A stretch of 64,000 bases of DNA from Tetracentron sinense (Eukaryota > Streptophyta > Magnoliopsida > Trochodendrales > Trochodendraceae). Both the position numbers and the translations under genes were made by a program. Position 1 is the first letter of the stretch. The number at the start of each line of letters is the position of its first letter. Below are positions 23,859 to 60,544 of the stretch, in pieces. Below the pieces are notes generated by a model. It had not been told where the DNA came from. It worked only from the letters and a program-made list of their open reading frames with translations, and made no database searches. The stretch is from assembly GCA_015143295.1 (NCBI GenBank), contig CM026554.1:53132627-53196626 (forward strand), in the 5' to 3' direction.

Positions 23859-24580
23859 TTAATAAATAATCGGTGGCGGCGGAGCAGGTATTTGTATTCT
23901 AGGTGATTTCCCCTGGTTTCTTGTCGGCGTCGGTGGAGCAGGTCTTCTTGATCTTAGGCTCTGAAATGTTACCTCTTTTTCTCCATTAATCACCTGGCTT
24001 TCACATCCAAAACTACCTTTGTTGCCTGGAGCCACCTTCCTTGAGCTGCCCTGACCGCCGGAAAACCACCATAAACCCTCCTCATCACCTTCAAGCAAAA
24101 AACATATCATAAGAAGAAATTAGTAATTGAAGGAGCTCTGGACAAACGTATTACAAAGTAAACATGTGTGTTTAAACTATCAAAGATCCTATATTATGGT
24201 CATATATGTTTGTGTGTGTGTCCCCATATATTGTAGAGATGTGCCAGCTCTTGAGTGGAACATATCTAGAATATGGATGGACCGATGAACCTAACTACTG
24301 TGGATTGATCGATCAGATGATTAACCTAACTAGTATGGTCTTGTGGGCTATATATATGTAGTATTTCTAAGATGTGGGGCTTATTTTGGATGGTCTAAGA
24401 TCAACGTCATGTTTGGATGGCCATTTACGCAAGCACCATTAGTGGGTATTGGTTAATATAGGAAACAGTGAAAAATAGAAGAATACCAGAAGAAAGCAAG
24501 GGAGAAGTCGCCGGCAAACCACCTAGAAGAAGCAATACAGACAGTGTTGCAGCAACCAGCTTCGCCGGAAAACCAACCAT
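23859..24580 (-). CDS. Putative secreted small protein P1 (four-member tandem family)
   Basis: Two exons, 24580-24487 (94 nt) and 24088-23859 (230 nt), are joined by a phase-1 GT-AG intron and give 107 residues. The ATG is preceded by an in-frame stop. Residues 1-25 form a clear signal peptide (LVAATLSVLLLLGGLPA). A core GLWWFSG follows at 36-42, then a GSFGCESQV motif at 57-65 and the tail RSRRPAPPTPTR. The C-terminus is proline-rich. Unlike P2-P4, which have a Cys in the WFSGCQ motif, P1 has Gly there and so a single mature cysteine. I do not recognise the family. Signalling or defence peptide precursor is an inference from signal peptide, size and RRP-rich tail. Four copies with conserved exon structure support a real gene. 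Confidence 0.7.
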
Positions 24581-24661
24581 GTCGACGACGAGGAAAGTCT
24601 ACCAGTTGGTTCACTTGTTAAGGAAGAGAGAGGTCTGAGGATTTATGCCATGCAAATGAAG

Positions 24662-24669
24662 TATAAATA
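24662..24669 (-). promoter_or_regulatory. TATA-like box of P1
   Basis: TATTTATA on the minus strand, about 85 bp upstream of the P1 ATG, in a segment conserved at P3 and P4. Confidence 0.5.
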
Positions 24670-25547
24670 GATGCATGGCTCTCACAGAAAATATGATTCT
24701 TGACTTTTGACTTTCGCTTTCACATCTATATATAGCTTTTACGGGAGTAAGTAATCATACAACTTGAATCCATTGCTTGAGAGATTTTGCTACAGAAGGC
24801 TTGTTAGCCTTGCAACCTCTGCTTATAGGTTAGGTTTAGGTTAACTTTCTTGAACCCTAACCCTAAAAGTTGAGGTGGCATGGCTGATAGTCCTTCTCAG
24901 CCTTTTTGCACCCAAATCATTTTCGCAGTGTATTCAAGTTAAGTGTGAAACTCAGTTAGCGACGTGGTTTGACTTTAATCCAACAACCACGACTTGGAAA
25001 TAGGAATTAGGAGGAAACTTACAGGCCCTTTCATGTGTGGGAATTCAGGAACGATAGGTGGGAGACTCGGAATTTTCTCAACATCAACCAGGAGGATTTT
25101 CCTCGGGGTTGATCGAAGGTCCACCATCTGTCACATTAACCCTAATTAGTCAGCTTTATTGTTAGGTTTAATGCTGATCTAATCTAAATTTTAGAAAATT
25201 GGATGATAGATGACTGAACATGGAGGAAATCCTCCGGGTTGATACTGAAGAGATCCAGAGTCAGAGGTAGGCATCACAAATCACAAGGGGCCACCAAAGA
25301 GACAAATTGAACTTATAAAGCTAGCTGGTGTTGATCCTAGGTCAGAGATTGTGATAACTTGGAAAAGAAAGAGGCAAATCAACTCAAGAAACTTCAAGTC
25401 TATGACATCAGTACCGGTTCAACCCTAATCGTATGGGGCTTGGTCTGGTCAGTAATATTCTTTCAGGGAAATTGTTATGGCAAAAGAAAATTTTTATGGG
25501 AAATATTTCTCTCTATTTTTAGAGACCGATTATTTTTTTTGGACTTT

Positions 25548-25745
25548 GCTAATGAGACCCCCTTAAGGTCGAGATCATGCTCTAAGAGCATTAGATTTCA
25601 GGTGGGGCCATTTCACATGGTAGGCCCTACCAGAACTCCCATGCTCTTAGAGCATGGTCTCGACCCTAAGGGGTAGGCCCCACTTGAAATCTCATTATCT
25701 TAGAGCATGGTCTTGGTGGTCTCGGCCTAAGGGGGTCTCAGAAGC
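25548..25745. mobile_element. Fold-back MITE (GCTACTGAGACCCC family), copy 1
   Basis: Starts GCTAATGAGACCCCC and ends GGGGGTCTCAGAAGC, with internal complementary blocks (TGCTCTTAGAGCATG). No coding capacity. The better-preserved copy is at 26646. Confidence 0.65.
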
Positions 25746-26645
25746 TTTATATTTTTTGTTTAAACCTCAAATATAAGTAAAACTAAGGGAATGATTTGTT
25801 ATAATTCAGCTTTTCAAATACAAAAATTAGCTTTTCTCATGAAAATAATTTAGTGCACCTAATTTCCCTCCAAATAAACCGTGAAATTTCTTGAGATTAC
25901 CAAAACTGAAGGAATTTTGCTAATAAACATAAGAGAAATATTACACACCAGACCAAGCCCCTGTATTATTAGGGCTTGAACCAGGACTGATGGCGCCTTT
26001 GGGTGTATGTTGGTGTGCTCCCAAAATATTTCCAAATGCCCAACAAATTTTTTAGTTGTTTACGATTGTATTAGTTGTTATTTATCAATGAATAACGAGA
26101 ATCATATTAAGAAAGAAGGGATATACAATAGATGGAGGAATGAGCAAATTTCCTTACGAAAAATCTTACACACTCAAAAAAAGGTTTAGGAGTCAGCAAA
26201 AAATAATATGACTCCACCTATACGAGAAATCAGCACTATCTATGCTCAGAAACTATCCCTCTGTACTTACGAATATATTGATTGTTATATGAGTGAATTA
26301 TGCTTTTTGTTGAATAGACAGATTAATTCATATACGCGTAATGTAACTGCGTGTCTAGGATGTAATGGTTTTAGTACCTCATTTAGTGAATGATAGTTGC
26401 TGGACTTTCTTCATCATACTTTTAGCTTATCTTCGCACTAAAACAACTTTAGTTTTGAATTTCCATGCATTTCTTGTGTTTCTAAAAGTTGTTTATAGCG
26501 CTTCCATGCCCATCTATGATACATTTCCTAATTATGATTAAGCAATATGCACATCATTACAAATATTTTAAACGACGGCAAAGTCGAGATAGAATCTTAA
26601 GAGGGTGAGTCTTGGGTGACTACTTGGATATTAAGAAAGGACTTT
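25746..26645. other. Spacer, no gene seen
   Basis: AT-rich sequence between two MITEs of one family. Short open frames at 26007-26393 lack any recognisable domain or codon signal. Confidence 0.4.
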
Positions 26646-26798
26646 GCTACTGAGACCCCCTTAGGGACCACCACCGAGACCGTGCTCTAATAGCATGGGA
26701 TTCAGGCGGGGCCCATTTCACATGGTAGGCCTCACCTGAAATCTCGTGCTCTTAGAGCACGCTCTAAGTGGTCTCGGCCCTAAAGGGGTCTCAGTAGC
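26646..26798. mobile_element. Fold-back MITE (GCTACTGAGACCCC family), copy 2
   Basis: A 153-bp element with perfect 14-bp terminal inverted repeats, GCTACTGAGACCCC, and extended internal pairing that could fold almost the whole length. Target duplication not resolved. Confidence 0.75.
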
Positions 26799-26815
26799 AT
26801 TTCCCATTAAGAAAA

Positions 26816-29313: not shown

Positions 29314-30014
29314 TTATTCAGAGATGGCCGGTGGAGGAGGATAACGCAAATTAGGTGATATTCCCTCGTTTTTCGTCGGCGTAGCTGGTGGAGGTCGTCT
29401 TGATTTTAGGCTCTGAAATGTTAATCCTTTTTTCCCATAAATCACCTGACTTTCACATCCAAAACTACCTCTGTTGCCTGGAGCCGCCTTCCTTGAGCTG
29501 GACTGACAGCCGGAAAACCACCACAAACCCTTCTCATGATCACCTTTCAAGCAGAAAACATATATCATAAGAATTGTAATAAAGAAATGATCTGCCAATT
29601 GAAGTGAGTATATAAGAATCTCTGAACATACGTACTACAAGTATATATATACATGCATGTCCAAAACCATATCAAGATCCATTATTATACAGTTATGTTT
29701 GTGTGTATGTGGTGTGCCCATATATCCAGGATACTGGATGGACTGGCGAACCTAACAATTGTCGATTAATTGATCGATAAGATGGTCGCGATTAACCCGA
29801 CTAGTATGGTCTGGGGGACTATATGTAGCCCATATTGGATGGTCTAAGAGCAATGTCATAGGATGACCACCATTAGTGGGTATTGGGTAATCTAGGAGAC
29901 AATGAAAAATAGAAGAATACCAGGAGGCGTCAAAGGAGAAGTCGCCGGAAAACAACCTAGAAGAAGCAATACAGACAGTGTTGCAGCAACCAGCTTCTTT
30001 GGAAAACCAACCAT
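29314..30014 (-). CDS. Putative secreted small protein P2 (four-member tandem family)
   Basis: Exons 30014-29921 (94 nt) and 29543-29314 (230 nt), phase-1 intron, 107 residues. The signal peptide is nearly identical to that of P1 (KLVAATLSVLLLLGCFPA). The mature part has GLWWFSGCQ, GSFGCESQV and the tail SRRPPPATPTKNEG. Cysteines sit at about 44 and 61 in the mature part, which could pair. Relative to P1 there is one extra residue before the Trp motif. It lies 5.4 kb from P1 on the same strand, in a block whose flanks align with those of P1. Function unknown; a secreted peptide precursor is the inference. Confidence 0.7.
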
Positions 30015-30543
30015 ATTGATGAGGAAAGTCTTTCAGTCGGTTCACTTGGTAGTGGAGTGAGGCTTGAGGATTTCTGCCTTGCAAATCAAGTCTAAATAGA
30101 CGGCTGTCATAGAAAATGTGATTCTTGACTTTTGACTTTCACTTCCACCATCACTTTCACTTTTATATATATAGTTGACTAGTTGAGGAGTTTCCCCGGG
30201 AGAAAGGTATCATCGAACTTGGATCCACTGCTAAGGGATTTTGCTGCAGAAGGGTTGTTTAGATTTAGTATAGCTTTTCCTAACCCTAAAAGTTGAGGTG
30301 GCATGGCTGACATGCCTTTTATACATTTTGCACCCAAATCATTCTTGCAGTGGATTCAATTTACGTGTGAAACTCAGGGACGCGTTTTGACTTTAATCCA
30401 GAAACCGACATGTAATAGGAGACTTTTTTTGTTTTTGTTTTTTAGGGTAGGCATAATTTATCTTAGGTTAATAATTAGTAGGTTTAGTTAAGAGTTAGTT
30501 TATGTTAGTGCAAATGATGGGCAGTCCCAACCACCCCATCGCC

Positions 30544-34351: not shown

Positions 34352-37300
34352 TCAACGTCTGACCGAGGGCGATGGTGGAGCAGGTGTTCTTGATATTAGG
34401 CTCTGAAATGGTACCACTTTTTCCCTATAAATCACTTGACTTTCACATCCAAAATTACCTTTGTTGCCTGAAGCCGCCTTCCTTGAGCTGCCCTGACAGC
34501 CGGAAAACAACCATAAACCCTTCTCGTCACCTTTCAAGCAGAAAACTCATCATAAGAAGTAAGAAATGATCTGCAAATAGAAATGAGTATATGAAGGAGC
34601 TCTATTACATAGTATACATGCAGTTATGCTTGCGTGTGTGGGATGGTCAAATATTGTACAAATGTGCCAGCTCTTGAGTGGACCATATCCATAACAACGG
34701 AATGACGGATGGACGGGTGAACCTAGACCCCACACCGTACTGTGGGATTAATCCTGACCGCAACCGGATGCAATACCAAAAAGAGCGTTTTACATTCTAG
34801 GCTATATATTGCCCTTCAAGGATGTGAGGCTTATTTTGGAAGGTCTAAGATCAATGTCATTGGATGACCATTTTCACAAGGACCATCAAGCTTTGAAATC
34901 GGTCCCCAACCTGAACTGAAATCTCGAAAATTTCAGTTCTCTCGACAGGATTTTGGATTTTTTATATTTTTTTATTAATATTTTGTTAAAAATATATGTG
35001 TGAGGGGAATTTACCGAAAGGACACACGTCAGCAGCAACTCCTTTCAAGTTCTGATTAGCTGGTAGAAGGCTGGAGTGGAGGGTGTGATACCCTGACCTG
35101 CACTCCGATGATTAAGTCAGTGGGTGTAGGAGATGATGAACAGTAAGAATATAATAGAGAGTTCGAAGGTCTTAGCTCTCCTAATTTTTCGTCCCCCTTT
35201 ACACTGTTCTTCACAGGTTTATATAGAGGTAGGATCAGTCCCAGGCAACTGGGCAGCAACACCAGATCTCATTACGTGTTTTGGATACGCGATCGTGGAC
35301 AATAAGACGATAGGTACGTCGTCAGAGTGAAGACGTGATCGTCGTTCACGAGACCACAGGTCCGTTGCCAGAGTGAGGACGTGATCGTCGTTCACAAGAC
35401 CACGGGTCCGTCGTCAGAGTGAAGACGTGATCGTCGTTCACAAGACCACGACGTGATTGTCGTTCACAAGACCACGGGTCCGTCGTCAGAGTGAAGACGT
35501 GATCGTCGTTCGCAAGACCACGGGTCCGTCGTCAGAATGAAGACGACGGAAATGAGCTCAAGCGATAACACCATACTGAGGACGAGCTCGTTGTTACCAT
35601 ACTTAGGTTTTTACGAAATTTACCAATTACAAATTGCCCCTTTATGATACTTTGAACGTGGTTCAGAGTGTCATAAATATAGCGAAACGTTGGAGGAGAA
35701 GATACAGCTCACATCAGAATGATGATAGGTCACATACTCTGTATGCGAAGGCGTAGCGTCGTGCCAGCTGTATTGCGCGTGCCGAAACGTCATACCTCAT
35801 AAATGTTTGGCAGGCTGCCATCATTATCTTTCGGACGCTTTGCTTTCCCGACGGTTACTTAGCTCGGTCAAAAGACCATCCCGCCCTTCGGGCTGTCTTG
35901 ACGTGTGGACACGCGTACGGTACAGATCGAGGTCATTATCGTCCTTAGAATTACGGAATGGTCTATAAATACCGAATGCCTGGTACTCCATCTTCTTCAC
36001 CCGAATTTGTGCATCCCGTTACTCTGCCGGAATTTCTCCTCACCGACGATCTACTGTTCTGATTTTCTCCCTTCTCCGGCTGTGCCTCCCCTTGCTTCCC
36101 AAATCCAGTTTCGGTAAGAACCTTCTCCTCTCTTTTTATTCTGTGGTCGTCTTCCCTATATTTCTTCTTTTTCTCCCTTGTTTGCGACCATGTCTGCCGA
36201 AATAGTTAGGATAGACAGTGCCGATGAGGCCAGTTGCTCAGGCAGTGCCCCTCACGGTGTTATCACCCGTGTTTCCAAATCCAAAATCAGACCAGTGGTC
36301 AAATACGCACTTGACCACTACAGAACCCTTTTCCAAATTCCTCCTCACGTACACCTGCATTTCGGGGAAGAAGACGTTCTCCCTGACCACCGCTCTTCCT
36401 GCACAATCGTCTACCTCGCTCAGTTCGAGGCTGGACTTCGATTTCCCCTCTCTCCTCTCACGGACTCTGTCCTGTCCGCCCTGCAAATTGCCCCGGGTCA
36501 AATGCACCCGAAGTTCTACAAGTACCTGTCTCTGATGGACAAGTTCAACAGAGACGGGTACAATGTAGATGCCAGGCACGTCTTCCACTTCCGCTTCGTC
36601 GTGAAGTGCCCCGGGGTTGTTGAGGAGGGGAAGAAGACGTACTTCTCCTGGAGACAAAAATCCAAAGTCCCCGACATCATCTCGCACCTCCCCGACGTGG
36701 AACGGGATTGGAAGGAGATGCCCTTCGTGGCTTCGTGGTCTCCGGTGCTTGGAGGGCAGAGACTGCCCGTCCTGTTCCCCACGAATTTACTTCAGGTCTG
36801 TTACTATTCAGTCGTTTCCCGTTGTCGGTTTTTTGAAAACATGCCCCTGTCACATGACTAATAGTATTTTGCTTTTTCTGCAGAGGCTTCTAAGATACAC
36901 TTCTCCGACCTGTCCGCGGAAGAAGAGTACACGCTCCGGAGGATTCGCAGCGAGAAAGGGGACGCCTACGTCACCTGGAAGCCGTCCTCGACTCGAGAGG
37001 CAGGGTCCACTGTAGAAGCAGGGGCCAAATCTAAAAAGTCTCGTCGACAAGCTCGTCCGTCGTCAAAGAGACCGCTCGGACAGGCAGCTGTTCTTGGAGA
37101 AGAAGAAGAAATGGCCGACCAATCTTCTCCACGATCTACACAGGCTCCGGCCTTAACTCGTCCTCCCCGCCCTTCTCGTCTATCTTCAGCGGAGAAGAGG
37201 GCGGAGAAAAGAGAGAGAGTAGAGGCTCTCAAGGCCATAACGGCGAAGAAGGCTCGGCGAGAAGCTGAGCACGATCGACGGGTCCGAGAGCGCGCATCTG

Positions 37301-40300
37301 CCGGGGTGCCATCTACTCAGGCAGTAACGGTGGGCGAGGGGAGTGGTGTCCCCGTGGAGGAACCTCCAATCGTCAACAGCGGCTCTCCCACGGATGTTGT
37401 GACCGCTCCGTCTATTGTGGCAGAGACTGCTGCCCCCGGGATCGTCCCGGCCTCTGCTCCCTCCCCAGCCGCAAATGTGGCCTCGTCTTCTGCCCCTCCT
37501 CGAGAGAGGATTACCAAGGGGGGCCCCGCCGAATTCTGGAATCCCGTCTTCCCCAGAGGGTACACCCGTCCTACCGTTGCCCATTCTGCGATGGAGCACG
37601 ATTCTATCGCCACATCGATGATGTTGGCGATGAGGCTCCCAGCGGATATGGCCGCAACGAGGGACCTGCACTGGATGGGGATGTTCAGTGCTGCGAGCCG
37701 AACTGTTGCTACGGTACGCTCCTTTTTTTTTTTTTTTTACCATTTCTCTTCTTTTGTAGCTGGGCAACATGCTTGCCGGGATGTACGAGGTCACAGCCGA
37801 GAACAGGCGTACCTCCAATGGACTGAGGGACAAGGTCCTTGACCTGGAGAGGAGGGGAGCCGAGGACGTGAAACGGCTGAATCACGAGCTGATGTCCGTC
37901 AAAGCGGATCTTCGGACTGCCAAAGGCACAATTGCCTCGGCTGTGAAACAGCGGGACAAAGCTCGGGACGAGACCCGTAAGGCACAGGAAGGAGAGAAGG
38001 CGGCGGTGGAACAGGCCGAGAGGTCCGTCCTCAGGATCAGTGAGATGGACGAGATCGTGAATTCTCTCCGTCAGCGGCTGGAGACGATAGAAGCCGAAAA
38101 AGCAGCATTGGCCGAACAGCTCGAGGAGGCCACGGCCACGAGGGACAAGGAGGTTGAAGCCGCCAAGGAGGCTTTGACGGAGTCTCTTCGAGCCCACTTC
38201 CAGACGGAGATGGAGCGGCTGATAACTGAAGACCGGGTCGAGACGGAGAGAGAACTCATGAACGAACTCCGAGAGTCGGGACGACTGGTAGAGTCTCCCC
38301 AACAGTCGAAGGACGAGGCCACTCGTTCTGAGGCTGTGGGCATGGGGATCTCGCCTGGCGAAGAACCCGAGGTACAAGGAAGGGGGCAACCCTCGTCTTC
38401 TCTTGGACCGTCTCCCGTCCTGCCCGAGGCTCCTGCTGAAATCGCCTCCGCCGATCCTGCTGCTGACGACGTTTCGACCGTTCTTGATGACGCTGTCATG
38501 ATCGTCGACGTTGTCGAAGACTGATCCTTCCTCCTTTCCATCCCTCTCTTTTCAATTTTGTATCGGCTGTACTCCCGTTCATCTTATATCAATGAAAAAT
38601 TTCTGTTTTATATGTACCTCCTTTCATGATCACTGTGTTGCAACCGATTGGTCCGGAATAATCATCTCGTTCAAATAAGACATGGCACATAATTAACTCG
38701 TGATAGAGTATAAACTTCATAACGAAAATAAGACAAATAGCACATAATTAACTCGTGATTGAGTATAAATCTCATAATGAATATAATTCACATCACTTCT
38801 AATAAGGGGTCGTTAAAGAAGCGGATTAACACTACGGACGTAATTTGACAACAAGTCCATTTCATTAAGACGAACTTATGGTAACTCGTGGTGGGACACC
38901 ATGCTCAGAGGACATTCCATTAGTATAAGCCACCGGTATGCTCAGATGGTAATTCCTTTGTATGAGCCACATGTGTCCCGTGGTGAGTACCCTGTTCGTG
39001 TGAAATGCGCTCGCCGTGGTAACTCGTGGTGGGACACCATGCTCAGAGGACATTCCATTAGTATAAGCCGCTAAGATGCTCAGATGGCAATTCCTTTGTA
39101 TGAGCCTCCTGTGTCCCGTGGTGAGTACCCTGTGCGAGTAAAATGTTCTCGTCGTGGTAATTCGTCTAGAATGTTTTACGACGTACTGTTATTGGAAACA
39201 TTAACTCGTGGTAATTCATAACACAACTTTACTGGAAAAATTGTTTTAAATTCATAATGTTCCACGATTTTTGAATTACATTACCTTGCAAGTCTTTAAG
39301 GTAGTACACCCCGGGACTCCCGACACGGTCCACGATATATGGCCCTTCCCAGTTGGGACCCAGCTTTCCGCTATTGATTTCTCGTGTATTTGGGAAGACT
39401 TTTCGAAGAACGAGATCTCCGACTTGAAGCGCCCTTTTCCGTACTTTCTTGTTGTATGCCTTTCGTAATTGTTGTTGATAGCGTTTCATCTGAATGCTGG
39501 CGTCTTCCCGCTTTTCTTCCAGCAAGTCTAAGTGAATAGCCATCAACTCGACATTTTTGTTTTCCTCTCCATGTTTCTTCCGTGAACGTATTGTTGGCAG
39601 AAAGACTTCAGTGGGAATAACAGCTTCCGCCCCGTATGCTAAAGAGAACGGGGTCTCGTTCGTAGGGCTCCGTGGTGTTGTTCTGTATCCCCACAACGCA
39701 TTACGCAATTCGCTGGTCCACTTTCCCTTGGAATCTTCCAGTCTTCTCTTGAGGGCGTTCAAAATATTCTTGTTGGCTGCTTCGGCAAGGCCATTCCCTT
39801 GAGGATAATAAGGAGAAGAGAAGATGTGCTTGATTTTTAACTCTTGGCAAAAGTCGGCGATGAGCTTTCCTGTGAATTGCTTCCCGTTGTCAGAAATGAT
39901 GGACTGCGGGATGCCGAATCTACAGATAATGTGTTCCCACAAGAATTTCTTCACTTCTTGTTCTCTAATACGCGCTAGGGGAACAGCCTCGATCCACCGG
40001 GAGAAGTAATCCGTGGCTACGAGCTGAAAAATTAAATTACCAGGAGCTCTGGGAAAGGGTCCCACGATGTCAAGTCCCCAACGAGCGAAAGGCCAAGGTT
40101 GAGATACGATGTTGAGTTCTTGAGCGGGGGCATGAATCAACTTCGCATGACGCTGACATTGACTGCATTTTCGTACGTATTTCTGCGCGTCGGCTTGCAT
40201 ATATGGCCAAAAATATCCTTGCCCCAGAGCTCGATGAGCGATAGTCCGTCCACCGGAATGGATGCCGCAAATCCCCTCGTGAAGCTCGGCCAAAATCCTC

Positions 40301-43300
40301 TCTACGTCTTCAGGATGCACGCATCTCAAAAGAGGTCCTCCAAAGGATTTACGGTACAGTTCCCCGTCCACAAGGGTGTAACGGGGAGCTTTATACTGTA
40401 TTCGCCTTGCTTCCTTTGCATCAGAGGGGAGAATTCCATTCTGCAAATAAATAATTATGCCCGTCATCCAGCTCGGCACTTGACTTATAGATAACACCGT
40501 GCGTTGCGTCTGCAGTTCAATAGAGGGATATTCTTGATACTCCATGAGGATTGTTTTGGGCTCATCGGCTTGCATCATCGAGGTGAGGTAGGCCAATGCA
40601 TCAGCATGCCTGTTATCATCCCTTCGGACATGTTTAATCTCGATGACATCAAAGGCCTTTCGTTGTTCTTGTAAAAGTGCAGCGTAGCGTCTCATTCGCT
40701 CATCTCGACATTCATAGGTACCGTTGACTTGGTTCACCACGAGCTGCGAGTCACAAAACACTCGGAGCTTAGAAATTCCTAACTCTCGGGCACTCTGCAA
40801 CCCAAGTATTAACGCTTCATACTCAGCTTCATTATTGGAGGCAGCATAACCAAGGCGCGTCAACTTCTGTACTTTAACATGATCAGGGCTGACAAGAACA
40901 GCACCAAGTCCTAAACCGCTGACATTAGACGACCCATCAACGTACAAGAGCCAATCGCACCACGCCGTCAGTTTCGTTCCTTCTCCTCCCTCGTCTTCCA
41001 CAACGGAATTCTCCTCCGTGTCGTCTGGGAGTTCGTGACGGTCGGACTCCGCTGAAGTTTCGGCCTCCTCCACGGGGAAATCGACTAAGAAGCTTGCAAC
41101 GGCCTGCCCCTTCTCTGCGGTTCGGGCCTGATATTGGATATCGAACTCGCTAAGCGCCACGGCCCATTTCGACATGCGTCCCGCGGTTTCAGGTCGTCCC
41201 AACACAGTTTTCAAAGGGTACGTGGTGATGACGACGATGGTGTGTGCCTGAAAATAAGGACGTAACTTCTCAGCGGAAAAGACAAGAGCCAGGCATACCT
41301 TTTCCATTCTGCTGTAGTTGGATTCTGCCTTGTGGAATGTTTTGCTGACGAAATAAACAGGCTTCTTTACGCCGTCGTGACTTCTGAGCAGCACGGAGCC
41401 AATGGCTCGTCCCGAAACGGAGAGATAGAGGTACAACACTTCACCAGGTTCAGGTACGGAGAGGATCGGAGCAGAGCCTAGATACGTCTTTAAGGCGGCG
41501 AAAGATTGAGAACACTCTTCTGTCCATCTGAAGACGGAATTCTTTCTCAGCAATTCGAACAGAGGTCTGCATCGATCAGAAGACTTTGATATGAACCGGT
41601 TGAGAGCAGCGATACGTCCCGTCAGTTTTTGAACTTCTTTCCTGGTCTTCGGTTCCGGCATATCTATCAGAGCACGGATCTGCGCGGGATTTGCTTCAAT
41701 GCCCCGTTGGCTGACGAGATAACCTAGGAATTTGCCCGAAGCGACGCCGAATGTACATTTCTCAGGATTTAACTTTAGATTGAAAGTGCGTAAAATAGAA
41801 AACGGCTCCGCCAAGTCAGCCACAAGAGAGACCCGAGTTCGGCTTTTCACAACGATATCGTCAATGTACACCTCCACCGATTTACCGAGCAAGGGTCCAA
41901 ACATCAGATTCATCAACCGTTGATAAGTGGCACCGGCGTTCTTCAGGCCAAAGGGCATGACCCGGTAACAGAACAAGCCACGCTCCGTTATGAAGGCCGT
42001 TTTCTCTTGATCATCCTCCGCTAAGAGGATTTGATTGTAACCCGAATACCCGTCCATGAAGCTCAACACCTCGTGACCCGCGGTTGCTGTGATTAGTCTA
42101 TCGATTCTGGGAACTGGGAAGAAGTCTTTCGGGCAAGCTTTATTAACATTGGTGAAATCGATGCAGACTCTGACTTTCCCGTTCTTCTTCGGAACAACTA
42201 CTACATTGGCTATCCACTCCGGATATTGGACCTCACGAATGAACCCGTGCCGAATTAACTTATCGATCTCTTCATTGACGGCCTCATGGTATGCTGGAGC
42301 GAGTCTACGAGGCTTCTGTTTAACTGGATTGACTACGGGATCAACGTTGAGGTGGTGACAGATGATTTCAGGACGGATACCCGTCATATCTTCATGTGAC
42401 CAAGCGAAAACGTCAAGATTCTTCCTCAGAAAATTTACCAACTCTCGCTCTTCATCTGTTGTCAGACAAGTCCCGATCTGTAGCATTCTTGGCTCGTTCT
42501 CTGTCCCGAGGTTGACAAGCTTCGTGGGTTCAACAGAATGGTTTACCTGTGATTCACCCGTGCTCTCCTCTTCCACGGACCCGACCTGTAATTGCTATTT
42601 GAGCGGGTTGGGTGAGGCGTAATCACACTTCTGCGATGCTAGCTGGTCTCCTTTTATTTCACGTGGTCCATCCGGAGTGGGGAATTTCAGTACCTGGTAA
42701 TAGGAAGACGGAACAGCTCTCATTTCGTGAGTCTACCATCGCCCCAAGATAGCATTGTATGGGGACGGCGCGTCGATAACGGAGAACCGGGTAGATAGGG
42801 TGATAGGTCCAGCTTTAACTGGTAAGACGACTTCTCCCAGGGGTTGCATCGAACTTCCTTCGAATCCTATCAAGGGGGTCTGTGCAGGGACAAGAACCGC
42901 TGGATCCAACTCCATCTTAGCGAAAGCATGGAGATACAGGATATCTGCCCCACTCCCAGGGTCAATGAGCACTCGCCTGATGTCGAAATCGCCAATTCTC
43001 ATAGACAGGACAAGAGCATCGTAATGAGGCCTAACCACAGTTGTCATGTCTTGATCAGTGAACGATAGGACCTGCTCGACTTCCTTCGTCGTCGATCGCA
43101 CTTGACAAACTTTTGCCACGTGTGATAACTTCCTTGCCTTCGCTCGATACTGTTGCTCGACATCTACTTCCGGCGCCCGAGCGCGATGGATGACGTTTAT
43201 GACTCCCTTCGGTGCTTCTCCGCCTCGGCTCATATGACCAGATGGCTCTCCCTCGTGAGACCGAGTGGAGGGCTCTGTAGTATGCCCCTCTTCTCTTCCA

Positions 43301-46300
43301 GAGTTCACGTATTCTCCCAGATAGCCCTCACTGACTAATCTTTCCAAGTATTCTCTCAAGATGCGACAACGATTTGTGAGATGCCCATGGCATTTGTGGT
43401 ACTGACAGTATTTGTGCGCCCTGGGTCCCGTGGTGACGTCACGAACGGTCCGCGCTGGCCACTCGAAGTATGATTTGTCTTCCATCGTCTTCATGATCGT
43501 CGCCGGGCTTGCCGAGAAGTTGACTTGACCACCACGAGACGCGAAAGGACGTCTTTCTGTTGCTCGATTCCCCCTCTCCTTGTAATGCCCGGGTTCCTCT
43601 CGTCCCTGATAGGCACGGTCGTCCCTCCGCCGGAAATTGGACCGTAGATCCGTTTTCCTTGACGAGTCTGCATCTTGGCGGATTCCCAACGAGAGTCGGT
43701 TCGGTTCTCCTTGTCGCTCAACGTACACAACTTTTTCCTGTCGTATGCGTCTGCGTGGTTCCTCGTCACTGGAAGATGATTCATACTTTGATCTCTTCCC
43801 TCTCTTTGAGGAGGGTCTGCTTCCCCACTCCACAGCGTCTACCCCTCGTGCTCTGGGCCTCGTCGTTGCTGCAATATCCTCCTCCATCCTTCCGTACTTA
43901 GAGGCACGGACTATCAGCTCGTCCATCTTGATTGGACAGTCAAGGGCAAGAGACTCGTAGAGCTTGGAACTCTTGGGTATGGCGTTCTTGAAGGCTGCTA
44001 TGCAAGTGCAGTCCTCAATCTTGTCGATATTAGAGACTTCATCGGTAAACCGTTGAATAAAATCTCTAAGGGACTCCGCCGACTTCATTCTCATGGCGAA
44101 GAGGGAATCTGCACCTGCTTTCTTCTTCTTGTTGATGATGTACTGGTCAATGAAAACTGATCTCAAATCAGCCATACATCTGATCGACCCCGCGGGTAGA
44201 TTACGGAACCATCTCGCAGCCGCTCCAGTCAGGCTGCTAGGAAAGGCTTTGCAGAGGAGATTTTCATCCGGGTTGCGGACTGCCATAACATTTTTGAAGT
44301 CGGTCAGGTGGTCAATAGGATCTCTCCTCCCGTCGAACTTGACAAAGTTTGGTACCGTGAACTTCGATGGGGTATAGGATTCGACGATCTCCTTGGAGAA
44401 AGGAGACGTCTCCTCCTCGTCCTTATATTTCTGAGCATACTGATCGAGAGAGGCTCCACCTGTCGTTCCTCTGACTCGAGCATTAATCAAAGTTTCCACG
44501 TCTTTGAGGGTCAGGCCTGTCTTCAACCCGTCGTCGCTGACACGGAGATCTCGATGTTCAGCATGTGCACCAAGAGAACGAGGGTGGGTAGCTTCTTCAG
44601 TGGAAGGAGTGAGAGTGAATCTTCTTTCCAGATTCTCTGGCGCAGACGGCGAGGTCGGGGCCGTTCTCTTGGGGGGAGGAGAAGGAGGGAAATTGAGTTT
44701 ACGAGCTGCAGAGCCTCCTCTAGGAGATTCGTCATCGATCTCCAAGTTTCCGTGCTCCAAAGCATCAAGCCGCTCCTGCAGTGACTGTTGTTGGCTGACT
44801 ATCTGGGACAGAGTGGCCTGTTGTTGTTGTAATAGTAACAAGATGGGATCAGACATGGTTATGGGCCTTTCTGGTTGTCCAGAAGATGGGCCTGATGTGA
44901 ACGTTTGCGCGGTGGAAGGAGTGCACGAAATGGCTTGAAGGGGCTGGTTCTCGATGATAGACTGAGGAGTTTGGTCTGCCATGCTGACTGAAAGAAGTGG
45001 TGTGAGCAAAGGGTGGTTTCGGTTAAGTAATTCCCACAGACGGCGCCAATTTTGTGAGGGGAATTTACCGAAAGGACACACGTCAGCAGCAACTCCTTTC
45101 AAGTTCTGATTAGCTGGTAGAAGGCTGGAGTGGAGGGTGTGATACCCTGACTTGCACTCCGATGATTAAGTCAGTGGGTGTAGGAGATGATGAACAGTAA
45201 GAATATAATAGAGAGTTCGAAGGTCTTAGCTCTCCTAATTTTTCGTCCCCCTTTACACTGTTCTTCACAGGTTTATATAGACCACCCTTGCCATGGCCAT
45301 AGGCACCCATTGATGTCCATGCATACCTCGAATCCCTGATGTGTACTTCAGTAATCATTTTAGATAGATCTCCCGGTTCTTCGTACTGCACGCGCATCTG
45401 CACACAAAAAGAGCAGGCAAAGAGTAGGAACTCGTCCGAGGTGACTGGCATTAAATGCAGCATTAAATGCCATTTAATGCCAAGACAATGTTACTCACCT
45501 ACCATCGTAGAGGTAGGATCAGTCCCAGGCAACTGGGTAGCAACACCAGATCTCATTACGTGTTTTGGATACGCGATCGTGGACAATAAGACGATAGGTA
45601 CGTCGTCAGAGTGAAGACGTGATCGTCGTTCACGAGACCACGGGTCCGTTGCCAGAGTGAGGACGTGATCGTCGTTCACAAGACCACGGGTCCGTCGTCA
45701 GAGTGAAGACGTGATCGTCGTTCACAAGACCACGATGTGATCGTCGTTCACAAGACCACGGGTCCGTCGTCAGAGTGAAGACGTGATCGTCGTTCGCAAG
45801 ACCACGGGTCCGTCGTCAGAATGAAGACGACGGAAATGAGCTCAAGCGATAACACCATACTGAGGACGAGCTCGTTGTTACCATACTTAGGTTTTTACGA
45901 AATTTACCCATTACAATATGTTCAAATAATATTTTATTAAAATTTAATATATAAATATTACTATTTTATTTTAATAATAAAATATATAAAATTTCACAAC
46001 ATTTGGTGAAAAATATCCAAATATTTTAGAATATTTCAAAATTTTAATAAATAATAATATAAAAAACATTTAAAATCAAAATTTTGAAATCACAGCCAAA
46101 ATCGTGTTATCAGAAATCCTAACCATATCGGTGGGGTTGGACAAAATCGGGATTTCACGAAATCCCAATGAGATTTTAAACCTTGAGCACCATTAATAGG
46201 TATTGGGTAATCTAAGAAACAATTAAAAATAGAAGAATACCAGGACGAAGCGAGGAAGAAGTGGCCGGCAAACCACCTAGAAGAAGCAATATAGACAGTG

Positions 46301-52316: not shown

Positions 52317-55300
52317 TCACATCCACATGGAGTTACGCGCAGGGTCAAAGTCATCTGTGTCCTGACTAGACTGCTGATAGTACTGATTCTCCACATAAGT
52401 ACAATATTCTGTCCAGTTCATCTGATGAGAGAACAATGATGTATACTCATATACATAACGCTGATAGTCATCTACCCCAACACGAATCAATACTCCCATC
52501 GGTGGATACTCTGGATAATAATTGATAACTGTCACCGGCACTGGCACTGGTACTGGCACTTGCACTTGCACATGAGGTTGTACACCTCCATACGAACCAT
52601 ACCCATAATCATACGGCTCATACCCAGAAACATATCCATATGGATACTGACCCTCTAGCTATGGTTGTTCATAGTCAGATTGTCAAGAGCTCGATGTCTG
52701 AGACTGTTCATCTTGGTCATGGCTGGAGGACCGAGTACGATGATATCCTCTAAAACTAGAGCCTGGATGTTCCCTAGCCTTAAACCAATCATCTGTTAAT
52801 CCATATCTCTCATAAATGGTTCCTCGTCTCGTTCCTTGGCCCTGCCCCTTCCCCTACCCCTGCCCCTGCCCTTGCCACTGCCACTGCCACTGCCCTGCCC
52901 TACCGACGGGAGGTATAATTTATTGGTTGGCTTGCTTCTGGATGTGATAATGGAGCACCATGATCCTGATCCTGTGTAGAATGGTCAAATGAAGCCTCAC
53001 CAGTGAATGGGCTAAGAGGCCTCTGGCTCAACTCTGGTTCGGCGTTGCCTCCATCCCCAGGATTGTCGTCGTCGCCTCCAGACCCTCCACTACTCTCATC
53101 ATCAGTAGCGTGGTCATCACCACCCTCATTAATATCATCAGAATGAGAATCTGATAATCCACCCGTCGCAATGGTTGCAACACCTGAAGTCGTAGGATCT
53201 CTCATCAACTCAGCAAATGAATCTTCGCTAGTGCTCGACCCCACTTCAGTAGCTACGACTCTGTCCACATCAATGCCCATCTCAGTGGCATCCCTAGCTA
53301 TAACTATGTTCAGACGTTCATCATCCTCATCAAGAGCAGAGACCCTAACCCACTCAGAAAGTGGGTTATTCTCATCTCATTATGACCGACTTCCATCAAG
53401 TTTAAGGAATCCTGCTCCGATATTTTTCCAGTTGTGCTTTGCAATCCTCTGAGTCGTAGCTACATATTATAGTGACAGAATACCAACTTTTGTAGCTTTT
53501 TATATCCGAGTCGGTTCCACTGCTTTGTGTGGATGAGAGCAAATGTACTCCAATTACGCTTGCATGCCGAAGATGAAGCATTCTGTGCTAGCACGTGAGT
53601 CGCCAACTTTCTTAGGTGCGGACAGTCAATCCCGTAGCTATCAATTAAACATGATTATCATTAGTTTCATAAATACATTTGATGTGCTGTTAAATATGTA
53701 CTTTCTTATGTACAAGTTGCTCACCTGACATCATCTTACTCCTTGACTCCTTAGCAGCAATTCTACCAAAGCTCCCCCACGCATCTTTGAAGCAAACTAA
53801 CTACAAAGTTTGAAAACACACTTTCTAATTATGCTCAAGCCACAAAGTACTAGAATGCATTCATGCACATAAATATACTATAGTTAAATACGTTTTATGT
53901 TTACCTCATTCCCAAAATCTCCTTTCCTCTTACACTTTGAGCCCAACCTCTCAAACACGTCATGTACGGCTTTTACTAGGTCGTCCCGATTCTCCAGTTG
54001 GTTCTTGTAATGGTACTTGGGGTTCAAATAGTATGCTGACACGTGATCATACAAAAAAAACTATCAACAACACAATAACAATTTAATGTAAACATCTAAC
54101 AAAAATAATAGTACCAACTTACCAGCAGCATGAAGTGGATGCCCCAATGTCTTATCCCATCGATCATTAATAATCTTGTGGACCCACTTGTATCAACGGG
54201 GAGACACATTCTTTATTGACTCCTTCATAACCCGCATCAATTCGTACATAGAACCCATAGTCGGCTACTTATCCACGTCTACTACCTTGAGGACACGATA
54301 GATAGGCTCTAGTATGGCAACCGTGTCACGCGCTTTATCCCAAAATGCATTGCTGATGATGATGTCCTCAACTCTCTTCGCCAAAACAGTGCGACGACCG
54401 GCATACTCTTCCCAAGATGCATTAGTGAACATTGCCTTGAGTCCAACTTTATGGTTCAACAAACTCTCCAAGGCAATGAAATTAGTCGTGAAGCGCGTTG
54501 CCCCTGGCCGTGCTATGTCACCACCACACGTGGCTCTCATCTTTGCAAGAATCCAGCCATGGTTGTATATGAAGTTGGTGACTATCCTTGCCTCTTCAAT
54601 AACAGATTTCACAGTAGGCCTCTCTCCTATGGCCTGTAGCATCAAGTCTATGCAATGGGCGGCGCACGGGGTTCAGTACAGGTGATACTTCTTCATAAGC
54701 ATCTTCCCAGCCTTCACAAAGGCGCTCCCGTTATCAGTCACCACCTGCACTACATTCTTTTTTCCCACCTCTTCAACATTCTTCATTAACCCATAGATAA
54801 ACTTTGCATCCTTTATCTGATCAGATGCATCCACAGACTTCCAAAATATTGTCATTCCCACACAATACACCATGAAGTTAATAATGGAAAGTCTAGTAAG
54901 CCCTGTCCACCCGTCATACATAATTGTAACCCCAAAAATTTCCCATGACGGCCTAAGACTGTCAATATAATCTCTTACCTCCTTCTCCTCTGCATCTAAA
55001 TATTTTCTTGTGATCTCAAATGGAGAGGGAGGCGGTACCCCTGGACCAACTCGTGCGGCCTCGTCGATCATGTTCTTAAACTATGGGGTCGAGGCGGCGT
55101 TAATAGGCACATGACTATGAATAAAGAACTTCGATACAGTTATCCCAAGCATGTCTGCTAAATTTCCCCCACTCCATAGATCTTTCAACCTTCTCTGTTT
55201 TGCATCTCGATTCCTGTAAAGACTTGAATCATGTGGTTGCTCTGGGACCCTCACGCTCTGACTACGTCCAAACATCCTCTGACTCCCAACATTTGTCTTT

Positions 55301-55785
55301 GTGTTACCCCTCGACCGTGATGGTTCTGCACCTGTACTACCTCTAAAACCAGATGACTGTAATTCACACTCCTGCTGCTTTTCCCATTGACTCCGCATAG
55401 ATTCCCGGTAGGTCTGTCGATATGCAATCCTCTCATCAACTCCTGTACAGTCAATTGGGAAAGCACAATCTTAATCCTCATCATCTTCCTCATCCACAGC
55501 TCGTGGTGGACTTATACGATGCCTCAATTCTGCGTGAATCTCTTTCGCACGGTTGGCGGCCTCCTCCCTATTCTTAGCCCAAGCAGCAATGTTTTCCCTC
55601 ATTGCCTTTTTAATTTCTGGTGGACAACTCGTACAGGGTAACACATCTCGATGACTCCCGGCAAGATGTTGCTTTAGCCGAGTCATGCCCCCACTCTTTA
55701 TCACTTTACCACAATAATTACACACCGACCAGTTTTTATTCCCATCCACTGGTTTTCCATGCGACTAACCTATGTCTGGTGCCAT
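52317..55785 (-). pseudogene. hAT transposase: BED finger, DUF659, C-terminal dimerisation
   Basis: From ATG 55785 one reading frame carries a BED-type zinc finger (CNYC and HLAGSH), a linker, a DUF659-like catalytic region (TIMYDGWTGLTRLSIINF, VVTDNGSAFV, then a TPCAAHCIDLML motif) and LNPKYHYKNQLENRDDL. After intron-like gaps (about 54120-54040 and 53900-53650), the hAT dimerisation signature follows (SSACKRNWSTFALIHTKQ, about 53560). An acidic Gly/Asp-rich tail and a Tyr-rich C-terminus end at 52317. In-frame stops appear near 55770, 55475, 55082, 54670, 54268 and 54198, so it is inactive. Several stops fit single C-to-T or G-to-A changes, for example TGA where LYWTP is expected. Confidence 0.8.
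52835..52905. repeat. CCCTGC/CACTGC simple repeat
   Basis: An array of hexamers on the plus strand; on the transposase strand it encodes Gly-Lys-Gly-Arg and Gly-Ser-Gly type runs, so it is probably part of the low-complexity C-terminal coding region. Confidence 0.6.
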
Positions 55786-55789
55786 AATG

Positions 55790-57060
55790 AAAAGAGGCTG
55801 CACAGGTTGAAATATTAATTGTTCAATATAAATGGTACATATATATTTCTATGCACAATAATAATTCTGACTATGTGTACGGTATACCTATTAACATATA
55901 TCATCTTTTGATTTATTTAATTTTTGTTGTCGATTTATTTAATTAGAAAATAGGATATCCTACACGTATATTTAATTAAATATATCTATCTAAAAAAAAA
56001 TAACACTATGATATATATTTAATAAAATATATCTTTCTAAAAAAAAAACACAATGACATATATATTAAATAAAATATATCCTTAAAAGAGATAAACTAAA
56101 CTAAATATTTAATTAAATGTATCCTTAAAAATACTAAGATATATATTTAATAATACTAGTAAAGGTACACGTGTTAATATTTTTTCCATATATAAAATGA
56201 ATATTATTATTTTATTATTAAAAGAATAATAAATATTTATAATAAAATAATATATATTATTATTTTATTATTATACTTTATAATTTTGTAACTTTGATTA
56301 GATATTTAGATGAGACTAAAATAATATCACCTTATATTTACTCATGCTCTAATATTTAAGAATTGTTTAACTAATGCAGAAATTCTAAAAATCTTTTAAA
56401 GAGTCATTTATCTCAAGTACTAGGCCAAAACGTAATGGTGAATAGCAGTGTTATTATTTGATTTAAAATTTTATGAATTAAACTTTTAACGCTTTCAAAT
56501 AAGTAGGAGTGTAGAACGCATTAAAAGGTAGAGATCAATTAATGTTGAGTTGAGCCTACTAAAGTAATATATATTAAATTAAAAAAATAAAATTATAAAT
56601 TTTTATTTTAATGAAACTTATGTAATAGAATCCTTCTAAGTTCTAACTTCTAAGTCTAATATAAAACTCTTCATCATATTGTTAAAAACATTACAATTTA
56701 AATATAAAGTTTTTATTTAATAAAGTAAAGTAAAAGATATTTACGTCCAATTAAAGTGTAATAAATTTTAATTTATGAAATATTATTTTATACAATTTCG
56801 TTAAATATTATTAGTGTGTAAATTTTAATGTAAGGGAGGAGTCTCTCTAAAAACAAAATTATTTATAAATAAGTATATTAATGTAACTATGTAAGGGAGG
56901 AGTCTCTTTCTTAAAAAAAAAAATTATAAATAAGTATATTATAGTTATTGTTGAATAAATAAGGCACTGTTTCGTAAAAACCCAATCTCTTAAGTTTAAA
57001 TCCCTAAATCTACAAAATCATTCAAATCATTCGTAACATTACTAATCAACAGAGAACTCA
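55790..57060. other. AT-rich 5' region of the hAT element
   Basis: Very AT-rich with duplicated GTAAGGGAGGAGTCTCT segments (about 56832 and 56891). An ACTAGTAAAGGTACACGTG stretch at about 56155 could be the end of another small insertion. No gene. Confidence 0.4.
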
Positions 57061-57880
57061 GTGAGAAGAGAAAAGGGGAAGACGGAGAGACTAACAGCGA
57101 TGGCGATGGAACTCGACGACGGAGACGGCGACGACGATGGAGCTCTACGACGGCGACGACGGCGAGGAGGTCCTCTGCGTTGCGGCTCTGCTACGGGTAT
57201 GTACCCTCGCCAAATTCCTTTTTTTTCCCCTTCTTTCCTCCTTCTTACTCGTAGATCTTTCTCATGGATTTTCTTGAGGGGTTTTAGTGTTTTACCATTG
57301 TTTAAATAATGGAGTTCTTCATGCCTTCACAGTTCACACTCACGGGTATTGTCAGTAGTGAGTGATGACTGACTGACTGGTGAGAGACTGAGAGTCTCAT
57401 CAACTCTGAAAGCCTGAAAACCTAAAGTGCCACATATGGTGATATTCCCTTCTCTCAAGCTTTTTCTTTCACGCCTCACAGTCGTCACGAGATCCCTGTT
57501 CTCCCTTTTTTTTTTTTTTTAAATTACAATTTCACATGATATATGCGATATATCGCGAGATATATCCCATATATCGTTAGATACTAAACGAAAAATAGGG
57601 AAAAAAAAATCAAAACAGTGAGTTGAAATTTCGTAAATCTAGCTTGAAATTTTCGAAATATTGTAAAAAAATTAATTTTTGGTTCAGATGTCTCGGGACC
57701 CTCCGAGATCGAGATATCTCGTCGAAATATACGAAATTTCGACAAGATTTTGAACCTGGAAGTAGCTATGAATCTACTTATTAATAAGTACCTTTTTTTT
57801 TTGGATTCTAAACACTTTTACTTTTTACTTATATTTTTTTTTACCAAACAAACTTATTTACCAATAAGTACTTATTGATC

Positions 57881-58066
57881 TTTTTTTTTTGAGTGCAGTT
57901 TATACGGTTAGGCCGCAACCCCAGTTAGAGTGTTAGTATCTGCTCAAGTTAGTGGTACGGGTAGAGAGTAAACCGACTCTCACCCTCGCGGGAATGGATC
58001 CCGGAACCACTTCCTTACGGAAGGGGTACACTTACTATTGGGACAAAGCCCTGATGTGTACTTACC
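57881..58066 (-). mobile_element. tRNA-type SINE
   Basis: On the minus strand a 186-bp insert begins GGTAAGTACACATCAGGGC. It has a B-box-like GGTTCCGGGATCC, continues through CTAACTGGGGTTGCGGCC and ends in a 10-base A tract. It is flanked by a perfect 7-bp duplication ATTGATC (57874-57880, 58067-58073). The empty site is preserved in unit A at about 32927-32940. The tRNA-like head and A tail indicate a SINE; it recalls plant Au-type SINEs, not verified. Confidence 0.75.
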
Positions 58067-58374
58067 ATTGATCAATAAGTGCTTACTAGTAGTTTTGCCA
58101 AACGCCACCTAATGGAAAAAAAAAGTCTTAATATGAGCCCGAACAGGCTTTACGAGCTAAGCTCCCCTTTTCTACAAATTAAGTTGATGGCAGTCTTGTA
58201 ATTATGAGAATACAAAACAACTACAGTTTTCTCATAATTACAGAACTACCACCAAACATTGGGGAGCTCCCTTCACCTCAGATTTAAACAAAAAATAAAA
58301 CCCCAAAAACTAACAAAATCGATTATTGTCAACAAAAACTTTTTATCCCCTCATTGTTTCCTCCTCTCATCAAT

Positions 58375-59280
58375 AGGCGGAAGAGGGAGGGGGGGGGGGG
58401 GGGGAAGCGGAGAGGGGCCATGCCCCCCCTCCCCCCAAGATTTTCAAAATTTTATTATAATGTGGGTATAAAAAAAATTGTAAACTTTTTTTTATGTATA
58501 ATATAAGAAAACTAATCACCTCCTCGGTCGGTGACGTGAGGAGGGGGCGTCTCGGCTGCCATTTTCTTGCCACGTGTCCCCTTCGACCCCATTTAACTGT
58601 GGTTAAGATTCATCCATCCTTAGGGTTCACCCATCTATCCTTGGTTTTTAGAAAAATAATATAAATTAACTAAAGGGTTAAAAAAAAAAAACTAACCTGA
58701 GTTAATTAATGGGAGTTGAAGGGTCAACTATGTGAGAGTGAGGAGGAATAGTCCCCTCATCCGCCGACGAGGGGACTTTGCTCATAGTATAAAGGGATTA
58801 AGTCTTTACACGTGTATCACTTTTAACCCTAATTAAGATTTATTGAATTAGAAGTTAATTGTTTTTAAAGTAAAAACCAAGGATAGATGTATAAACCTTA
58901 GGAATGAGTGAATCATAACCACAACCACAGTGAATGGGTGTTAAAAGGGACATGTGTCAAACAGGGAGGCGCACCCGTTCAACTAAATGCGGAACCTGTG
59001 TGTGAAAAATCAATATCTATAATATAAAAATATAGTTAATTTAATAGTAGTGATTATCCCACCCCACATTTGATGACTACATAATCAAATGACTTCCCAT
59101 TTCATTCTTTTTAATTGTGGTTAAGCTTAACCAATTTAAAGTTATTATTTTCTAAAAAATAAGGCTAAATGGATGAACTATACAAGTGAGTGAATCTCAA
59201 CCACAGCTAGTGGGAAGTAAAAAGGTGAAGATTGGCATTTCATTACATAGTGGAAATATGCCATAAGTTAAGCATTTTCT
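58375..59280. repeat. Hairpin-rich repeat block, unit B copy
   Basis: Counterpart of 33240-34150. Here the homopolymer is G on the plus strand (about 58387-58404), followed by a separate C tract. The second hairpin keeps a 9-bp stem (AGTCCCCTC ... GAGGGGACT at about 58750-58777); the first has lost part of its pairing. Non-coding. Confidence 0.5.
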
Positions 59281-59284
59281 TTAT

Positions 59285-59656
59285 GGGTGCTTTTGGATTT
59301 ATGGAATTGAGGAACAAAATTGTCAATTCCATCACACAATTTTCATTTTCATCATCTGGGACACATTAATAATAGGCTGAAATTAGAATTTTCTAATTCC
59401 ATAGAGAATTCAAACAGTGATTTTAAAGGCAAATTTATGAGATTCAATTCCATAGTAAAATGGTTTTATTTGACAATTCCACACTGTTTTGGAATTTAAA
59501 AACAAAAGAGAAGTCCGATGTTTCATTTCTCCAGGAATTTAATAGTGCATCCAAAAGATAGAATTCTGAATTTCGTGGAATTTAATTCAGTGGGTTTAAA
59601 TTCGATGGAATTCAATTATTTGGCTCAATTCCAATTCCATAAATCCAAACACACCC
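59285..59656. mobile_element. MITE (GGGTGTGTTTGGATTTATGG ends)
   Basis: A 372-bp element whose first 25 bases and the complement of its last 25 match at 23 positions. The interior is rich in GGAATT motifs. Unit A lacks it at about 34100, so it came after the duplication. The flanks could give a TA or TTA duplication; ends like these are usual for Tourist-type elements. Confidence 0.75.
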
Positions 59657-59833
59657 TAATTTTACGTATATAATGACTTTATCAAAAGGGAAAATTTTAT
59701 GACTGCAATGGACTCAAGACAAAAAAAAAAAAAATCTCGGGTTAGGCACCGAAACCCAAGGCCCCATACACCCATTCTCCTTAATTTTTGTGATATATAT
59801 AAGGAAAAATTCCTGACTCCTCCCTTGCTTAAA

Positions 59834-60288
59834 TCAACGTCTGTGAACGACATCTGGTCCATCATTTCTCATGGGCGGCGGTGGAGCAGGCCTTCTTGAT
59901 ATTGCTAGGCTCTGAAATGGTACCAATTTTTCCCCATAAATCACTTGACTTTCACATCCAAAACTACCTTTGTTGCCTGGAGCCGCCTTCCTTGAGCTGC
60001 CCTGACAGCCGGAAAACCACCATAAACCCTTCTCGTCACCTTTCAAGCAAAAAACATATTATAAGAAGTAAGAAATGATCTACAAATAGAAATGAGTATA
60101 TGAAGGAGCTCTATTACAAAGTATACATGCAGTTATGTTTGTGTGTGTGGAATGGTCAAATATTGTACAAATGTGCCAGCTCTTGAGTGGACCATATCCA
60201 TAACAACGGATGGACTGGTGACCTAGCTAACAGTTGTTGATTGATCCATCATATGGTCAGGATTAACCCCACAGTACGGTGTGTGGGC

Positions 60289-60320
<32 letters not shown>

Positions 60321-60544
60321 GATAAGCTTTGGTTAGGCAGACCCCAACCAGATGCAATACCAAAAAGAGCGAATTACATTCTAGGCTATAGGTGCTGCAC
60401 CATTAGTGGGTATTGGGTAATCTAGGAAACAATTAAAAATAGAAGAATACCAGGAGGAAGCAAAGAAGAAGTGGCCGGCAAACCACCTAGAAGAAGCAAT
60501 ATAGACAGTGTTGCAGCGACAATCTTTGCCCGAAAACCATCCAT
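59834..60544 (-). CDS. Putative secreted small protein P4 (four-member tandem family)
   Basis: Exons 60544-60451 (94 nt) and 60039-59834 (206 nt), phase-1 intron, 99 residues. Signal peptide AKIVAATLSILLLLGGLPA, then GLWWFSGCQGSSRKAAPG, GSFGCESQV and the tail AISRRPAPPPPMRNDG ending VVHRR. It has two mature cysteines like P2 and P3. It is closest to P3 in sequence and flanks, but its intron (411 bp) and leader lack the two LTR-type insertions, so it shows the ancestral layout of P3. A TATA-like TATTTAAA lies about 70 bp upstream. Product function unknown. Confidence 0.7.

Follow-up and report, generated by a model that had tools for sequence, protein, structure and literature searches.

Introduction

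SCOOP peptides carry a conserved serine motif of the SxS type and are perceived by MIK2, and the peptides known as CTNIP or SCREW are perceived by HSL3/NUT together with BAK1. The PROSCOOP precursor genes of Brassicaceae are described as encoding proteins of 72-117 amino acids with a signal peptide, in two or three exons, and as lying in tandem clusters with transposon remains, the conserved motif being internal (PMC6382344). W-box and WT-box elements are described as WRKY70 sites at the partly WRKY70-dependent PROSCOOP4 (PMC11663584). For the CTNIP/SCREW peptides, two cysteines are reported to be needed for activity, and the CTNIP authors filtered for 9-11 residues between them (PMC9191895). 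Here we describe a gene family of Tetracentron sinense, four members of which (P1 to P4) lie in tandem in a 64-kb stretch of contig C4 (C4:53132627-53196626; hereafter the window, to which all positions without a contig prefix refer). To judge from sequence, these genes appear to encode unrecognised small proteins with predicted secretion, and we regard the family as a good candidate for a plant defence or signalling peptide that has so far escaped recognition.

A family of short two-exon genes

Each of the four genes lies on the minus strand and consists of two exons joined across a GT-AG intron in phase 1. The first exon (94 nucleotides, nt, in all four) encodes a predicted signal peptide, and the second, in P1, the core and a proline-rich tail, stop included. 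P1 (exon 1 at 24487..24580, exon 2 at 23859..24088) and P2 (29921..30014 and 29314..29543) both have open frames of 107 amino acids, with introns of 398 and 377 nt; P3 (46241..46334 and 34352..34530) has a frame of 90 amino acids and an intron of 11,710 nt, and P4 (60451..60544 and 59834..60039) a frame of 99 amino acids and an intron of 411 nt. This shared first exon, the intron phase and the open frames had been proposed in a first-pass annotation of the window, and hold for all four copies at the positions given there. The motifs named in that annotation stand with one amendment: GCESQV is present in all four and SRRP in P1, P2 and P4 (SRTP in P3), whereas GLWWFSG is found in P1, P2 and P4 and is varied in P3, where the first Trp pair reads WL (GLWLFSG). 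Between different copies, exon 2 is matched by tblastn at E values of 1e-30 to 7e-21, a likeness far beyond chance.

The four-member family originally proposed is part of a larger one. Searches of the 1.16-Gb assembly, the one plant genome covered, with P1, M3 and P5h as queries, in which locus counts are lower bounds, revealed at least eight loci: P1 to P5 on C4, with P5 at 52.951 Mb on the opposite strand and about 205 kb from P1, and M1 to M3 on C18 (31.996-32.009 Mb). Second copies of P1, P2 and P4 (P1h, P2h and P4h) were found on contig C676, and one of P5 (P5h) on contig C307. C676 carries the alternative versions of P1 and P2 together with a single P3/P4-like unit, and copy number therefore differs between the two versions, with four copies on one contig and three on the other. 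All copies have the 94-nt first exon and the phase-1 GT-AG intron (for P4h the splice acceptor was seen). The introns of M1-M3 measure 91-104 nt and that of P5 222 nt. The frame of P5h (locus L011) is open; as the C4 version contains a stop, a segregating null allele is possible. Two further matches at C4:1.93 and 1.95 Mb were not counted, having genome-wide E values of 0.04 and 0.09, 36% identity and stops; they reached E 5e-8 only in a 3-kb database with composition correction off, and we treat them as chance or a decayed relic.

Comparison of the second copies shows that P4 and P4h match at 91% in exon 2 (59834-60039 and L014 8978-9177) and at 98% in the adjoining 220 nt of intron, a contrast that could stem either from local conversion with another copy as donor or from a rapidly changing tail. 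P1/P1h and P2/P2h differ at 3 of 648 exon positions, 4 of 775 intron positions and 42 of 3,874 positions in the 1-kb flanks; since the exons are no different from introns and flanks, a claim of allelic constraint on these pairs was dropped.

Comparison with described peptide families

Like the PROSCOOPs, the family encodes a short precursor with a predicted signal peptide (here 90-107 amino acids from two exons, in clusters of four and three), and both have tandem clusters bearing transposons and a conserved motif that is internal rather than C-terminal. The WRKY-site promoter of PROSCOOP4 (PMC11663584) also has a counterpart here in paired W-boxes. The two differ in plant lineage, in the two cysteines of some Tetracentron copies, and in the SxS motif, which occurs in 5 of 11 sequences (P2, P2h, P3, P4h and P5h), in differing places, and is missing from P1, P4 and M1-M3. 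As the SCOOP serine motif is not conserved, the family may work like PROSCOOPs without being one.

The first-pass annotation had pointed to two mature cysteines and compared them with SCREW/CTNIP. The precursors of these peptides are small and secreted, as those of Tetracentron are predicted to be, and two mature cysteines are indeed present in P2, P3 and P4, as well as in M1 and M3. However, there is one in P1 and P4h and none in M2 and P5h, and wherever two occur they are separated by 16 residues rather than 9-11. The pattern C.{9,11}C matched none of the 11 sequences, and we reject membership of this family because the cysteines are not conserved. HypSys and systemin-like peptides share with the Tetracentron proteins a run of basic residues followed by a proline-rich stretch, but here the proline-rich part, with a ratio of nonsynonymous to synonymous substitution rates (dN/dS, or omega) of about 1, is not the conserved part. 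Finally, the IDA/IDL, CLE, PIP, CEP, RGF/GLV, PSK and PSY precursors are secreted, as is predicted here, and of comparable length, yet none of their consensus motifs, nor those of PEP, CAPE or RALF, was found in the mature part of the 11 sequences.

None of eight members matched a Pfam family at E 0.001, the sole match up to E 10 being one member to DUF5336 (E 0.016). There was no meaningful match in the PDB, and neither viral contigs (40 pattern matches) nor prokaryote genomes (78) yielded a relative. Literature searches with the motif strings returned one irrelevant paper, and the review excerpts contain no account of such a family. The proposal that the proteins belong to an unrecognised family is thus upheld.

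Constraint falls on the core and not on the tail

Between the C4 and C18 copies, exons align at 74-85%, whereas no such alignment is obtained for the flanks or for the introns (377-411 nt in P1, P2 and P4, as opposed to 91-104 nt in M1-M3). We fitted codon models, using our own script rather than PAML, to nine of 12 sequences (leaving out the near-identical P1h and P2h and the nonsense copy P5), and carried out a second fit restricted to four sequences and to columns free of gaps. Pairwise dN/dS was 0.28-0.56 between C4 and C18 copies, 1.0-1.8 among M1-M3 and 1.3-3.3 among P3, P4 and P4h. A two-ratio model, whose foreground branches were picked after these pairwise values were known, put the omega of old branches at 0.54 (p=3e-4 for a difference from 1) and that of recent branches at 1.58 (p=0.07 in the same comparison).

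Partitioning the protein localised this constraint. On the old branches of the nine-sequence fit, omega was 0.44 for the signal peptide, 0.26 for the core (p=5e-8) and 1.02 for linker and tail (residues 67 to the end); on the recent branches the corresponding values were 0.89, 1.22 and 2.84, the tail alignment being gappy, which may inflate omega. The four-sequence ungapped fit gave 0.40 for the signal peptide, 0.31 for the core (p=1.5e-6) and 0.96 for the tail (residues 67 to the end). The constraint is on the signal peptide and the GLWWFSG...QVI core, not on the proline-rich tail: because omega is 0.26-0.31 in the core and about 1 in the tail, it is the core that selection has kept. This runs counter to the earlier suggestion that the tail is the processed active peptide. 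The accompanying proposal of selection on the products holds when old lineages are compared but does not extend to the P3/P4 group, whose branches have an omega of 1.79 (p=0.15 against 1) and which lacks paired W-boxes; similarly, the dN/dS near 1 that had been named as speaking against such selection is found among recent copies and not among old ones. P3 and P4 appear to be under relaxed constraint or in decay.

Paired W-boxes in the promoters

Most promoters of the family share a newly found feature, paired W-boxes, which are putative WRKY sites. In P1 the pair lies at 24700..24712 on the plus strand (-132 and -125 from the ATG) and overlaps a WT-box; in P2 the pair lies at 30125..30137, also on the plus strand (-123 and -116), with a third W-box at 30175-30180 (-166). 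Between -180 and -100 we counted two W-boxes (TTGACY) in P1, M1 and M2 and three in P2, M3 and P5h, and none in P3, P4 or P4h, P4 being free of W-boxes for 1,000 nt upstream. Six of the nine promoters therefore hold at least two W-boxes about 110-170 nt upstream, with cases on both the C4 and C18 segments, as compared with 0.74% of background 80-nt windows (0.06% with at least three). An all-hexamer test on 300 nt each of P1, M3 and P5h placed AAAGTC first (p=6e-6) and TTGACT second (p=1e-5), before correction for some 2,080 hexamers. In addition, a WT-box (YGACTTTT) was found in P1, P2, M1, M2 and M3, that is, in five of the six promoters with paired W-boxes, the exception being P5h.

We note that further tandem W-box pairs occur at 49511 and 61561, about 3.2 kb and 1.0 kb upstream of the ATGs of P3 and P4, respectively. 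They lie beyond a shared repeat (49188-49450 and 61238-61500), and may represent a displaced promoter or be unrelated.

Age and genomic setting

The T. sinense genome has been described as a 1.17-Gb assembly with 24 chromosomes of 33-65 Mb, of which chromosomes 4, 10, 18 and 23 are named as collinear, and as carrying duplications, common to Tetracentron and Trochodendron, of about 82 and 59 million years ago (PMC7709256). We infer with strong confidence that contig C4 is chromosome 4. Synteny was assessed by single-gene searches. The anchor within the window is a CCCH/RRM gene at 511..5956 on the minus strand, in which Pfam matches RRM_1 in 2560-3870, whereas the CCCH finger, in the open reading frame at 4937-5956, was read by eye in a region with no Pfam match; Pfam also confirms the LOB and Hist_deacetyl domains of the other two anchors. 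Paralogues of the CCCH/RRM gene lie at C10:39.42 Mb (83%) and C18:31.864 Mb (71%), with no other at E 0.001, and its orientation on C4 is inverted relative to C18. The closest paralogues of the LOB-domain gene at C18:31.955 Mb are at C23:5.119 Mb (86%) and C10:39.527 Mb (81%), and those of the histone-deacetylase gene at C18:32.094 Mb are at C23:4.992 Mb (80%) and C4:53.258 Mb (78%). On both C4 and C18 the family copies sit between the CCCH/RRM and histone-deacetylase genes. Because these flanking genes are paralogous, we take C4, C10, C18 and C23 to be four related segments, and C4 and C18 to be old duplicates. C4 is missing from the 11 matches of the LOB search at E 1e-30, and C23 from the 3 of the CCCH/RRM search; there is thus no one anchor gene common to all four segments.

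Synonymous divergence between the C4 (P1-P4, P4h) and C18 copies is 0.61-0.95, corresponding to 94-146 million years at a rate of 3.25e-9 per site per year (PMC7709256), with a large error given about 70 synonymous sites. The family split between C4 and C18 therefore falls at or before the older duplication, and the family would, within this large dating error, be at least as old as that Trochodendrales genome duplication.

The two exons of P3 are 11.7 kb apart because its intron holds a Gypsy-type long terminal repeat (LTR) element of about 10.9 kb (34999..45916, strand not assigned; LTRs at 34999-35632 and 45053-45916). The element is young: 6 of the 638 LTR positions aligned are mismatched, which by our arithmetic corresponds to about 1.4 million years at 3.25e-9, and it retains an uninterrupted frame of 1,121 amino acids with reverse transcriptase, RNase H and integrase domains. 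Around P3 and P4, the regions 31059-34114 and 49745-59292 form a large tandem segmental duplication, 87-93% identical over many blocks, that carries fragments resembling long interspersed nuclear elements and the P3/P4 units. Pieces of a hAT-like transposase (54268-55764, minus strand; Pfam zf-BED and DUF659) lie between P3 and P4.

Interpretation and alternative explanations

Our preferred reading, to which we give a probability of roughly 0.45, is that the genes encode precursors of secreted, core-derived defence signals under WRKY control. An old and small family would be switched on, presumably under stress, through its WRKY-type promoter sites. Exon 1 would supply the signal peptide and exon 2 a proprotein, basic, unstructured and some 64-81 residues long, in which an internal core of some 35 residues (GD-E-K-GLWWFSG...SRK..PG..GSFG..SQVI) would be the part that matters. 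After processing, this core would most likely be released or exposed in the apoplast as a phytocytokine-like, defence-linked signal, and the proline-rich tail that follows the basic residues would be a quickly changing flank rather than a conserved ligand. Tandem copies would arise and decay, with P1, P2, P5 and M1-M3 keeping core and promoter and P3 and P4 apparently drifting.

Several observations weigh against this interpretation. Conservation of the core does not by itself make it a ligand, and the signal peptide is putative, being read from hydropathy (a 12-residue maximum of 2.45-3.01 at residues 8-15 in all 11 sequences). The W-boxes were already known to us when we ran the hexamer test, and they are partly common by descent, representing about three independent lineages. 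Furthermore, omega for the whole protein in a one-ratio model is 0.78 (nine sequences; p=0.07 against 1), and that of recent duplicates (1.79 and 1.46) does not differ from 1 in either case, so that several of the copies may be of no importance. In the C4 version of P5 a TAG interrupts the core at its first Trp (locus L012, 3083-3418), and the genome searches found no family copy on C10 or C23. A bolder version seems to us doubtful: that the genes form a phytocytokine family not described before and dating back at least to the older Trochodendrales duplication, with the internal GLWWFSG...SRK..PG..GSFG core as ligand and a WRKY-driven tandem birth-and-death paralleling that of the Brassicaceae PROSCOOPs, which would imply that this early-diverging eudicot has a receptor as yet unknown.

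A secreted, WRKY-induced basic protein containing Trp and Arg/Lys might instead act directly on microbes or membranes, with no receptor. Its mature part is basic in all 11 sequences (net charge +4 to +9, isoelectric point 9.6-12.0) and LW.F is invariant, and the paired W-boxes fit such a protein equally well. Tandem copies, differences in copy number, nonsense alleles and omega above 1 are usual in defence genes, and all are seen here, the last on recent branches. That the cysteines are not conserved, that no Pfam antimicrobial family is matched and that the Trp content is small makes this explanation rather unlikely, as does the lack of a predicted fold (AlphaFold, on the exon-2 product of P1 with nine relatives: mean predicted local distance difference test score 55.1, predicted template-modelling score 0.16).

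It is improbable that the active product is the proline-rich C-terminal peptide, released after the basic pair and hydroxylated like HypSys or similar. Most copies do have such a tail after basic residues, with a dibasic pair directly before it in P1, P2 and P4 (RR) and in M2 (RK), and the recent-branch omega of 2.84 could reflect fast divergence of peptide specificity. Yet old branches give the tail an omega of about 1, P3, P4h, M3 and P5h lack the dibasic pair at this site, the tail is shortened in P3, P4 and P4h, and no CLE, IDA, PIP, CEP, RGF, PSK, PSY or PEP motif is present; the partitioned codon fits thus led us to reject the tail as first choice of ligand.

A small cell-wall or structural proline-rich protein, as 8-16% proline in the mature part and runs of three to five prolines in most copies might suggest, is very improbable, since there is no extensin-like repeated SPPPP and the proline-rich part is the least constrained. 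Equally remote is a once functional family now decaying throughout: the P5 nonsense allele, the invaded intron and lost promoter block of P3, the lost W-boxes of P4 and recent branches whose omega reaches or exceeds 1 would fit, but P1, P2, M1-M3 and P5h retain frames, splice sites and W-boxes, and the old-branch core omega is well below 1.

Many predicted plant secreted peptides fit no known family; in tomato this is the case for about half of them (PMC10515272). The Tetracentron family, from a lineage outside the usual models, has a marked candidate region and a conserved promoter element; its origin is dated, and its decaying copies can serve as internal controls. If the core is indeed the signal, PROSCOOP-like peptide systems would have arisen independently in separate plant lineages.

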